From positions 1 through 64,000 of the IMG/VR virus record IMGVR_UViG_3300028422_000919: a DNA stretch of 64,000 bases, one strand, 5' to 3'. Made by a program: the position numbers and the translations under genes. Below are positions 53,336-55,816 of the stretch, in pieces (the stretch's first letter is position 1; each line of letters begins with the position of its first letter). The stretch comes from a virus. Under the pieces are notes generated by a model that was not told the DNA's origin, made no database searches, and was given only the letters and a program-made list of their open reading frames with translations.

Positions 53336-53761
53336 GTGAATACCCTCAGTGAGTACCCAGAATCTCCGATTGAGACGGCCCTGGTGTTCGATACCCAGGG
53401 GCGGACTCTTCACTGGCATCTCCCCCCGGGGCGTTCCGGGGGATACCTGCCAGACTCCCAAGACCTTTGGGATGTTCTCTGGCGTCACCGTCTCAAAGGG
53501 GACGGTGACGGCCAACTCGGGGGGGTGGCCCACACTCACCCTTGGGTTGGGAGATCTGGGTACTCGCACACGGACGTAACCACGTTCTCCGCAGTGGAGA
53601 ATGGGCTAGGCCAACGGCTGCTGTGGCCTATCGCCACGTTCGACGACATCCGTTGGTTCACCTGGGTCGGACCAGAGAGTTTCCAGTACTCGGAGGTTCC
53701 CCCGCCCTTCCAGTTGAAGGACCTGAGCAAACTTCGACTTCTGTCTGGAGGTTCTCGATGA
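53336..53761 (+). CDS. JAB/MPN-family metalloprotease
   Basis: 141 aa from a GTG. The zinc motif HTHPWVGRSGYSHTD matches HxHP-x7-SxxD, and IETALVFD near the N-terminus supplies the general-base Glu. JAB enzymes cut isopeptide or peptide bonds after ubiquitin-like proteins. In many phages a JAB is part of tail-tip assembly, but there it is fused or adjacent to NlpC/tail genes; here it lies in the same strand group as a ubiquitin-like protein and E1. Confidence 0.85.
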   Translation: MNTLSEYPESPIETALVFDTQGRTLHWHLPPGRSGGYLPDSQDLWDVLWRHRLKGDGDGQLGGVAHTHPWVGRSGYSHTDVTTFSAVENGLGQRLLWPIATFDDIRWFTWVGPESFQYSEVPPPFQLKDLSKLRLLSGGSR

Positions 53762-54123
53762 GCGCCGTGCTTCACATCAAGGCCCGTTGGGCAGATAGCG
53801 TCATGGTGGCTCCCGCACCTGCAGCCAAGATTGTTCAGACGGGGGATCGGTGGGAGCTGATCCTCAAAATCGCCGACAATGGCGCCGCTCTGAGCGTTTA
53901 CCTGTCTCCAGGGGCTACTGCCCAAAGAGGCGACCAGGGGGTATGGGTCTTGGAGAAGCTGGGGGAGGGGGTTTACACCCTCAATCCCTCTGTGCTCAGC
54001 AACACCATCGCTATCCAGGTTCCGGGTCACGGCATGGTCCCGTTCCATGCTTACGTTGTGCTGTACGGATGCCCCAATGACCTGGGTGGTTACCCGGAGA
54101 CCGATCGACCCCCAGGCAGGTAA
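53758..54123 (+). CDS. Unknown 121-aa beta-rich protein
   Basis: ATG overlaps the JAB stop. Almost all predicted strands (RWELILKIADNG, AALSVYLSPG, NTIAIQVPGHG). Directly before the promoter of the ubiquitin-like gene. No family recognised. Confidence 0.65.
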   Translation: MSAVLHIKARWADSVMVAPAPAAKIVQTGDRWELILKIADNGAALSVYLSPGATAQRGDQGVWVLEKLGEGVYTLNPSVLSNTIAIQVPGHGMVPFHAYVVLYGCPNDLGGYPETDRPPGR

Positions 54124-54144
54124 CAGATCCCCTAATTCGGGTAG
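54119..54144 (+). promoter_or_regulatory. Phage promoter for ubiquitin-like/Ntn/E1 operon
   Basis: GGTAAC at 54119-54124 (overlapping the previous stop), 13-base spacer, CGGGTAG at 54138-54144. Confidence 0.8.
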
Positions 54145-54179
54145 GGGAGTAGGATCTACAGGCACAGGGGAGAGTCATC

Positions 54180-54458
54180 ATGGTGGACAACGAAATCATG
54201 GAAGTGGGCGAGCAGTTTGCTGTTCTGGAGTTCACGTACAATGGGGAGCAGGGGACGGTGGACAGCCCGGTCCGTTTCGACCTGCCGGACTCCTCGGTGG
54301 TCGAGATGGCACAGGAGGCTCTGCGGTCGGGTGATGTCACCGGCATCACTGCCGACAATACCGCCGACCTGACCGATTACAAGGTTGGGAGGTACCCCGC
54401 CAAGGATGGTCTGCCAAACCGCTTCAGCCTCCGACCGAAGACCCCATTCGGGGGATGA
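54180..54458 (+). CDS. Candidate ubiquitin-like protein ending in Gly-Gly
   Basis: 92 aa. Two strands (FAVLEFTYNGEQ and DSPVRFDLP), one helix (SSVVEMAQEAL), a turn region and a last strand ending RFSLRPKTPFGG, with stop directly after the two Gly codons. Length, strand-strand-helix-strand order and the exposed di-Gly end fit a beta-grasp modifier that an E1 can adenylate. The fold is inferred from pattern only. First gene of an operon with a zinc ribbon, a proteasome-like hydrolase and an E1. Confidence 0.65.
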   Translation: MVDNEIMEVGEQFAVLEFTYNGEQGTVDSPVRFDLPDSSVVEMAQEALRSGDVTGITADNTADLTDYKVGRYPAKDGLPNRFSLRPKTPFGG

Positions 54459-54658
54459 TCACGATATTCAAAGCAATCCATTGCCCTGAGTGCGATTCTT
54501 CCCTGTTACTTGGGCTACATGTCCATGACCCGGATACGAGAAGGCTGAATAGCCACCAAACCTTCAGATGCCGGAATTGCAGCCACGAGTGGGTGTCCGA
54601 GATTGTCTCGGAGCACCACAAGAACCTACTACGCCAAGAGCACACCACTACCATTTAG
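54455..54658 (+). CDS. Zinc-ribbon protein, 67 aa
   Basis: ATG overlaps the previous stop. HCPECDSS and FRCRNCSHEW give a two-pair zinc ribbon. It could be an adaptor of the neighbouring modification genes. Confidence 0.7.
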   Translation: MITIFKAIHCPECDSSLLLGLHVHDPDTRRLNSHQTFRCRNCSHEWVSEIVSEHHKNLLRQEHTTTI

Positions 54659-54674
54659 GGGCAAGGGGAGCGAT

Positions 54675-55241
54675 ATGACGGTCATCGTAGGGCTACTCGA
54701 AAGGTCCACAAACCGGATCTATATCGGAGGAGATTCCGCAGGTGTGTGTGGTACTCTGATCCAACCCGTGAGGCAGCCTAAGGTTTTCGCCAGGGGGCCT
54801 TTTCTACTGGGACACACATCTACGTTTCGGATCGGCAACCTCTTGCAATACGGGGGGGAAATCCCCACTCCCCCGGAGGGTGTCGACTTGCCCCGGTGGA
54901 TGTCCACCGTTTTCGTAGATGCCATTCGAGGCATCATGAAGGATGGGGGGCATGCCATGAAAAACAACGACAGGGAATCTAGTGGGGTTTTCATCGTCGG
55001 CGTCAAGGGTAAGCTATTCCGGTTCGAGAGCGATTACGGTTTCACGGACTCACACGACGATTACCTCTGTGCGGGGGCTGGCGAGGATTTCGCCCACGGC
55101 TCACTCCAGAGTACCGGAGCCTTGAACCTTCCGGGGAGAAAGCGTGTGGAGTTGGCCTTGGAGGCTACTGCCCATCATTGCACGGCGGTGACTGGTCCTT
55201 TCCAAATCCTCTGCTCTGAAGAGGAGGGAGGCAGCAGGTGA
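54675..55241 (+). CDS. Proteasome-beta/HslV-like Ntn hydrolase
   Basis: 188 aa. The sequence starts MTVIVGL, so Met removal would expose the N-terminal Thr nucleophile without a propeptide. Counting that Thr as 1, Asp19 lies in GGDSAG and Lys35 in RQPKVF, corresponding to Asp17 and Lys33 of proteasome beta subunits with the same two-residue offset for both. Later CAGAGEDFAHGSL and the helix ALEATAHHC match the back half of the fold. RBS AGGGGAG. Could assemble into rings; the unfoldase partner is not in the window unless the CobS-like ATPase or a host one serves. Confidence 0.75.
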   Translation: MTVIVGLLERSTNRIYIGGDSAGVCGTLIQPVRQPKVFARGPFLLGHTSTFRIGNLLQYGGEIPTPPEGVDLPRWMSTVFVDAIRGIMKDGGHAMKNNDRESSGVFIVGVKGKLFRFESDYGFTDSHDDYLCAGAGEDFAHGSLQSTGALNLPGRKRVELALEATAHHCTAVTGPFQILCSEEEGGSR

Positions 55242-55816
55242 GATCTGTCATCATCATCGGCGCCGGTGCGCTGGGTTCCCACGTTCTTCTGTTCGGGAGG
55301 AACTGGGATGCCGACATCACAGCCATCGACTTTGACAAGGTCGAGCAGAAGAATACCCAGAGCCAGGTTCACACCCGGATGGCTCTGCGGAGGAACAAAG
55401 CCCTGGCCATGCAGCAGCTCCTGAACGGGATGTTCGGAGTCCGCATCAAAGCGGTCCCCAACAAGCTGACGGAGGCCAACGTCAGGCAACTCCTGTCGGG
55501 GGCCGACCTCCTACTCGATTGCACAGACAACATCGAGGTGAGGGTCCTCATCCAGACCTTCGCTCAGCAGAACAATATCCCGTGCCTGCACGGGGGGCTG
55601 ACCGCTGACGGGACATTCGGCCAGTGCCTCTGGACCGAAGAGTTCACCCCGGACCCGGAAGGAGAGCCAGGGGCAGCCACATGCGAGAATGGGGATCACC
55701 TCCCCTTCTTCGCTGCGGTCGCCTCCCGGATGGCGGTCGCCGCCCAGCGTTTTCTCAACACCGGAGAGAAGCGGTCCTTCGAGGTGGCCCTCTCGGGATC
55801 CAAGAGAGTTTCGTAG
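55238..55816 (+). CDS. E1/ThiF-like activating enzyme
   Basis: 192 aa, short for the family. IIIGAGALGSH (nucleotide loop), AIDFDKVEQKNTQSQ, NKALAMQQL (Lys) and LLLDCTDN (Asp) are the adenylation motifs. The usual Arg of the NxxRQ motif is replaced (NTQSQ). Candidate catalytic Cys are in IPCLHGG and FGQCLW; there is no clear zinc site. It overlaps the Ntn hydrolase stop (GTGA). Confidence 0.85.
   Translation: MRSVIIIGAGALGSHVLLFGRNWDADITAIDFDKVEQKNTQSQVHTRMALRRNKALAMQQLLNGMFGVRIKAVPNKLTEANVRQLLSGADLLLDCTDNIEVRVLIQTFAQQNNIPCLHGGLTADGTFGQCLWTEEFTPDPEGEPGAATCENGDHLPFFAAVASRMAVAAQRFLNTGEKRSFEVALSGSKRVS

Follow-up and report, generated by a model that had tools for sequence, protein, structure and literature searches.

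A conserved five-gene cassette with a ubiquitin-like protein accompanies tRNA arrays in giant phages and myxobacteria

Does a giant phage carry a ubiquitin-like tagging pathway that feeds a protease of its own? The question was raised by a 64,000-nucleotide window, the first 64 kb of the 402,383-base IMG/VR virus record IMGVR_UViG_3300028422_000919, in which an initial annotation grouped a JAB protease, a ubiquitin-like protein (Ubl) ending in Gly-Gly, a zinc ribbon, an N-terminal nucleophile (Ntn) hydrolase, and an E1-like enzyme at positions 53336-55816. Our analysis indicated that these five genes are real and that all the open reading frames named there sit at the coordinates given. The Ubl, E1, and JAB genes belong together, as proposed, but their grouping with the Ntn hydrolase and the zinc ribbon did not hold. 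The conserved unit begins upstream of that cluster, at 49518, a start that had been missed, and comprises five genes, which we read, with a probability of about 0.5, as a Ubl-conjugation operon of a new prokaryotic type, with a link to tRNA handling. The cassette of the window is made up of the following genes.

49518-51467, + strand: von Willebrand factor A (vWA) protein, cassette gene 1, 649 amino acids (Pfam VWA, 1.6e-7)
52316-53332, + strand: 338-amino-acid protein, cassette gene 2 (AlphaFold2 mean predicted local distance difference test [pLDDT], 89; no Pfam match)
53336-53761, + strand: JAB/JAMM metalloprotease, cassette gene 3 (Prok-JAB, PF14464, matched by 40 of 42 homologues, best 8e-9)
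54180-54458, + strand: Ubl, cassette gene 4 (beta-grasp in the AlphaFold2 model; tail RPKTPFG followed by a last G)
55238-55816, + strand: compact MoeB/ThiF-like E1, cassette gene 5 (Pfam ThiF, 9.7e-24)

E1 and Ubl alignments, used to scan IMG/VR, yielded dozens of large-phage contigs, Rctr197k and the 595-kb LR756511 were drawn from named phage records, and gene order across the contigs was read with profiles built from the window genes. In nearly all loci the order was vWA protein, 338-residue protein, JAB, Ubl, and E1. All five genes were present in 45 phage contigs (40 distinct E1 sequences among them), and order and strand agreed in 44/44 loci readable on one locus, both counts taking in the window and some near-duplicate contigs; no Ubl was recognised in LR756511. 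With its order fixed in this way, the phage-borne set of Ubl, E1, and JAB forms a real conserved unit, as had been supposed. A compact arrangement, at locus L005, runs from the 338-residue protein to E1 as four genes placed end to end, directly behind the vWA gene and without an Ntn gene; a viral scan with the 338-residue alignment reached only this locus beyond the window, which is a limit of the pattern method. Three further loci (L049, L052, and L053) carry a more distant phage E1 (28-29% identity) together with a homologue of the 338-residue protein, neither JAB nor Ubl being recognised there by profiles, and possibly represent an older branch of the system.

The Ubl of the window, 92 residues long and ending in ...RPKTPFGG, is predicted to adopt the beta-grasp topology that had been proposed for 54180-54458. 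Its AlphaFold2 model (pLDDT, 84.5) has a beta-beta-alpha-beta-beta arrangement (strands 13-20 and 23-27, helix 37-50, strands 67-72 and 80-86) with a disordered tail, and its neighbours in the Foldseek search of the PDB were mostly beta-grasp proteins, including PI3K Ras-binding domains, RA domains, UFM1, a plant Ubl, and LC3B. The protein gave no convincing family match, and the single strong viral match was a 166-residue protein (35% identity), equal in length to the Ubl of Rctr197k. Across 44 homologues, R85, K87, and G91 are invariant, and the end, RPKTPFG, is likewise invariant, with a variable extension of 0 to about 60 residues beyond it (none in 9, one in 18, 2-9 in 6, and at least 10 in 11). 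The residue after the invariant glycine is itself glycine in only 3/44, so that the Gly-Gly terminus, whose lack of conservation the initial annotation had itself named as speaking against its reading, is not a conserved trait. The assignment as a Ubl is nevertheless strengthened, since an invariant PFG end with removable tails takes the place of the Gly-Gly pair. Variable tails past an invariant glycine, with a JAB gene adjoining, are as expected of a processed Ubl precursor, and the variation among these tails suggests that the neighbouring JAB may trim them. In some precursors (L043:4505-4828, L046:5103-5423, L068:7971-8348, and L072:7953-8336), the C-terminal tail beyond the conserved glycine contains CxxC pairs resembling a zinc ribbon; for comparison, a separate zinc-ribbon gene (54455-54658) directly overlaps the Ubl stop codon in the window.

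The catalytic residues of the two recognisable enzymes are preserved. The nearest solved structure to the E1 is MoeB (1jw9, 2.1e-18), and the adenylation motif (GxGxxG, D, N, K, and DCxDNxxxR) is present in the alignment of 65 sequences, over which the nucleotide-loop glycines, D31, D33, N39, K54, D97, R102, and C149 are invariant. C149 aligns with the cysteine of the MoeB motif TC(x)EAG, a position that is catalytic in ThiF and Uba4 and presumably here as well. The enzyme (192 residues) has no rhodanese domain, and the zinc-binding CxxC pairs of MoeB have no counterpart in it. The JAB gene begins with a GTG start codon and encodes a protein that includes HTHPWVGRSGYSHTD; its metal site, E...HxHP...SxxD, is intact and nearly invariant across homologues (E in 51/55, HxHP in 55/55, S in 54/55, and D in 55/55).

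In the model of the 338-residue protein, beta-strands spanning residues 13-132 are followed by a coiled coil (161-206) and then by a helix, four strands, and a helix. C277 is located directly past the fourth strand of this C-terminal alpha-4beta-alpha domain and, together with G275, is invariant in 57/57 homologues. Foldseek matches were weak throughout: the best for the N-terminal part included eIF1A, cold-shock domains, and the interdomain of Mpa, from which we interpret the modelled region as OB-fold-like, and dsRBD- or SH2-like pieces were among the best matches of the C-terminal part. The cassette proteins other than the E1 gave no E2 match in PADLOC, NCBIfam, or Pfam. Because an invariant cysteine is present in a system with no recognised E2, the 338-residue protein is a candidate Ubl carrier acting via Cys277. 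An E2 fold as such was considered for this protein and rejected, having been found by none of Foldseek, Pfam, and PDB profiles.

The vWA protein combines an N-terminal region of ~430 residues with a C-terminal vWA domain whose metal-ion-dependent adhesion site (DxSxS, T, and D) is intact, D449, S451, S453, T512, and D540 being invariant in 47/47 sequences. Pfam recognised the vWA domain alone; profile-profile comparison of the full-length protein with Myxococcota TROVE proteins gave a colinear alignment of 290 columns, at E values from 3.4e-5 to 1.4e-5, which is suggestive only of a distant TROVE/Ro60 likeness. TROVE/Ro60 proteins resemble the cassette protein in their length of about 600 residues, their C-terminal vWA domain, the location of their genes among tRNA genes, and the colinear if weak profile match, whereas the cassette protein has no Pfam TROVE match and is joined to a Ubl system. 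TROVE genes accompany 20/29 archaeal tRNA gene clusters, some of which contain tRNA introns, and no Ubl system is described alongside them (PMC6333295). Together with a tRNA-like partner, TROVE proteins serve as an RNA repair platform (PMC7824862).

The cassette is also found outside phages. A genome scan located it in Myxococcota, with a complete copy in Paraliomyxa miuraensis (799-kb contig), and a Ubl profile search was positive in 11/284 Myxococcota genomes. Two Myxococcota cassettes, with the same gene order and very divergent sequences, lie in contigs of 3.2 Mb and 1.19 Mb, the latter with neighbours that look ordinarily chromosomal by eye (e.g., thiolase and cytochrome c); some of the other metagenome-assembled genome (MAG) contigs carrying the cassette could be phage. 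Four Myxococcota vWA proteins form a clade (100/100 support) apart from the phage clade, and the Paraliomyxa and MAG rows fall inside the phage clade. The initial view of a phage-carried system thus remains valid insofar as the cassette is phage-borne, but not in the sense of phage-only, since myxobacterial chromosomes carry it as well.

tRNA arrays are the habitual context of the cassette. In the window, it directly follows such an array, a tRNA-like gene lies inside it, and an RNA ligase gene is present elsewhere, as follows.

36239-37516, + strand: RtcB RNA ligase, away from the cassette (E, 4.3e-88)
45969-49396, + strand: tRNA array directly upstream of the cassette
51593-51796, + strand: tRNA-Ala(cgc)-like gene between cassette genes 1 and 2 (ARAGORN with intron search)
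57202-57275, + strand: tRNA-Arg(cct), downstream of the cassette

The distance from the cassette to the nearest tRNA is 36 nucleotides at L085, 39 at L107, 43 at L113, and 118 at L106. At L106, on the 3.2-Mb Myxococcota contig, the cassette is situated within an array of 18 tRNA genes (region 4426-12548), and tRNA genes flank the L106 and L107 cassettes on both sides; L110 has 12 tRNA genes within 3.3 kb. RtcB was found in 14/20 cassette records searched, window included (13 phage contigs and Paraliomyxa). ARAGORN in intron mode called 592 tRNAs at 52 cassette loci, 58 of which (about 10%) bear anticodon-loop inserts, compared with 0-1 calls in reversed or shuffled controls. The insert of the tRNA-Ala(cgc)-like gene measures 128 nucleotides (fold, -84.3 kcal/mol; z, -3.3), and three tRNAs of the upstream array (48647-48779, 48784-48921, and 48980-49117) have inserts of 60-64 nucleotides. 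An archaeal-type tRNA-splicing endonuclease, which would explain the inserts, was found in none of 20 records searched.

In all, five tRNA genes of the window (the four just named and 9768-9915) contain anticodon-loop inserts of 60-128 nucleotides, too short for typical group I introns. The inserts of the tRNAs at 48647, 48784, and 48980 share the motif AGCTC..GAC.CTC-hairpin-GTCATGAGCCTACAAGC, and a shared intron element built from three inserts of the window had no copies elsewhere. Matches to YrlA (Y RNA) near the tRNA array were rejected, as they scored 21-30 against a gathering score of 69 bits and overlapped tRNAs.

We infer both the conjugation chemistry of the cassette and its role in tRNA handling. 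As the tail variation suggests, the JAB would trim the variable tail past RPKTPFG and expose the terminal glycine; the invariant motifs of the E1 suggest that it would adenylate this glycine and then take the Ubl onto Cys149. The Ubl would then move to protein targets, perhaps via Cys277 of the 338-residue protein as a non-canonical carrier, and the JAB may also remove it, which would make the tag reversible. Because of the fixed gene order, the TROVE-like layout, the tRNA-array context, and the frequent presence of RtcB, the vWA protein is probably part of an RNA-protein particle handling tRNA or tRNA-like RNA and would be the likeliest Ubl target or scaffold. A fuller and much more tentative version would be a Ubl-switched RNA-protein machine, in which a particle of the vWA/TROVE-like and OB-fold/Cys277 proteins serves tRNA repair or maturation, also for the many insert-bearing tRNAs of the arrays, RtcB seals the ends, and reversible attachment of the Ubl turns the particle on or off, the whole being a companion of tRNA arrays in giant phages and myxobacteria.

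If the conjugation reading is correct, Ubl conjugation, an activity usually assigned to the host side in phage-host conflict, is carried by dozens of giant phages, and the cassette would be the first Ubl operon, within the literature searched, tied to tRNA arrays and to a possible Ro60-like protein. Two proteins without an assigned function would become partners of a Ubl pathway whose chemistry is directly testable at the tail trimming, the E1 thioester, and Cys277. The attractive but unsupported notion of a phage ubiquitin-proteasome system is corrected.

Several points weigh against this reading. No E2, E3, or target is recognised, and no E2 appeared among the 50 best Foldseek matches of the 338-residue model. 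Structural matches of the Ubl in the PDB are weak (best E, 0.27; template modelling score, about 0.45-0.5), and the N-terminal region of the vWA protein, taken alone, gave no significant TROVE match (E, 0.012-0.028, hardly better than one control). At the bacterial locus L109, the 19 kb read contained no tRNA. Phage tRNA arrays are large, so that proximity to tRNAs says less in phages than in chromosomes.

Alternatively, the Ubl could act as a sulfur carrier. The E1 would then thiocarboxylate the JAB-trimmed Ubl, as with ThiS, MoaD, Urm1, and TtuB, and the sulfur would pass to tRNA or a small molecule, with Cys277 carrying it. Such a relay would accord with an E1 nearest to ThiF/MoeB and with the tRNA context, and operons of a stand-alone JAB, Ubl, and E1 with ties to sulfur assimilation are described in PMC1779556. 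It becomes doubtful, however, given an E1 devoid of a rhodanese domain, a conserved cassette containing no thiolase, cysteine desulfurase, or sulfur gene, one conserved terminal glycine rather than Gly-Gly, and a vWA gene for which known relays have no role.

It is likewise unlikely that the cassette is a bacterial or phage module for defence or counter-defence of the Bil, Bub, or CBASS sort, whose location near tRNAs would reflect only integration or cargo sites in tRNA arrays. Ubl operons of prokaryotes often act in conflict (PMC7159879 and PMC10097602), and the E1 has similarity to the PADLOC E1-E2 model; yet the E1 alone matches PADLOC, the cassette contains no E2, effector, nucleotidyltransferase, or metallo-beta-lactamase, and tRNAs stand on both sides at L106 and L107, with phages showing the same context. 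No evidence was obtained for the suggested aim at host defence or at virion proteins; the neighbourhood points to tRNA.

Three further genes of the window lie between those of the cassette, and the degradative part of the initial proposal depends on the last of them.

53758-54123, + strand: 121-amino-acid protein, outside the conserved cassette (no homologue at other loci), separating the JAB gene from the Ubl gene
54455-54658, + strand: zinc-ribbon protein, window-specific addition (weak Pfam zinc-ribbon matches), overlapping the Ubl gene
54675-55241, + strand: Ntn hydrolase, window-specific addition (PHROG 1040)

Among the cassette loci, these three genes occur only in the window's own record, so that the expected co-occurrence of Ubl, E1, zinc ribbon, and Ntn hydrolase was not seen. 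The Ntn hydrolase has Thr2, Asp20, and Lys36 counting the initial methionine (Thr1, Asp19, and Lys35 without it) and matches PHROG 1040, "peptidase HslV family", at 1.1e-11; its proteasome-beta matches in the PDB are weak (best, 0.32). Counts were taken from a protein search, because a search with the PHROG 1040 family overlooked the Ntn protein of the window itself: Ntn-family proteins occur in 71 phage records and are common in phages that carry no Ubl, and an Ntn gene occurs in 3/46 Ubl-bearing records besides that of the window, elsewhere in genomes whose records may be incomplete. Delivery of Ubl-tagged proteins to the phage Ntn hydrolase, to which the PHROG 1040 match and the 4-nucleotide overlap of the Ntn and E1 genes in the window phage might point, is highly improbable and disfavoured as a general mechanism, given the missing Ntn gene at other cassette loci, the spread of the family over phage records, its absence from Rctr197k (among the named phage records, the only one to carry a close homologue of the Ubl), and the lack of any unfoldase gene seen in the cluster. 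The Ntn hydrolase is a local addition that has no part in the cassette mechanism; although it matches the PPH/PHROG 1040 phage proteasome homologues (PMC8665760), it stands outside the conserved cassette. Nor was the single promoter proposed for the cluster apparent, no sigma-70-like site being found in 51400-55900.

Among known systems, operon types 4b and 6d of Iyer et al. 2006 come close, with Ubl, E1, and a stand-alone JAB together and a sporadic distribution (PMC1779556). Compared with type 4b, the cassette E1 has no rhodanese domain, and compared with type 6d, no E2 is recognised; the cassette adds to those operons the vWA and Cys277 proteins, a fixed five-gene order, the tRNA-array context, and huge phages. 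The PRTRC cassette of plasmids (ThiF, JAB, E2, and Prok_Ub) shares a JAB, an E1, and a small Ubl with ours. Membership in it was rejected: the E1 reached 33 bits, below the PRTRC_ThiF cut-off of 144.75, and the JAB, the Ubl, and the 338-residue protein matched no PRTRC model. The FtsH-ternary vWA-MoxR Ubl systems (PMC7159879) likewise bring together a vWA protein, Ubl, E1, and JAB, but the cassette has no MoxR/FtsH AAA+, E2, RING E3, EAD1, or caspase genes, and its vWA architecture differs. Keyword searching of PMC1779556, PMC7159879, the proteasome-homologue survey PMC8665760, and the 224-genome jumbo-phage overview PMC7824862 did not turn up the cassette. The initial annotation knew of no phage operon described with its gene set, and none with Ubl, E1, and JAB was found in the open-licence literature searched, which does not in itself prove novelty.

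Just past the E1 gene, at 55947-56474, lies a gene for a 175-residue protein with no family match and no homologue at other loci, whose repeated "DGPA...WWLHG" units appear MORN-like by eye.

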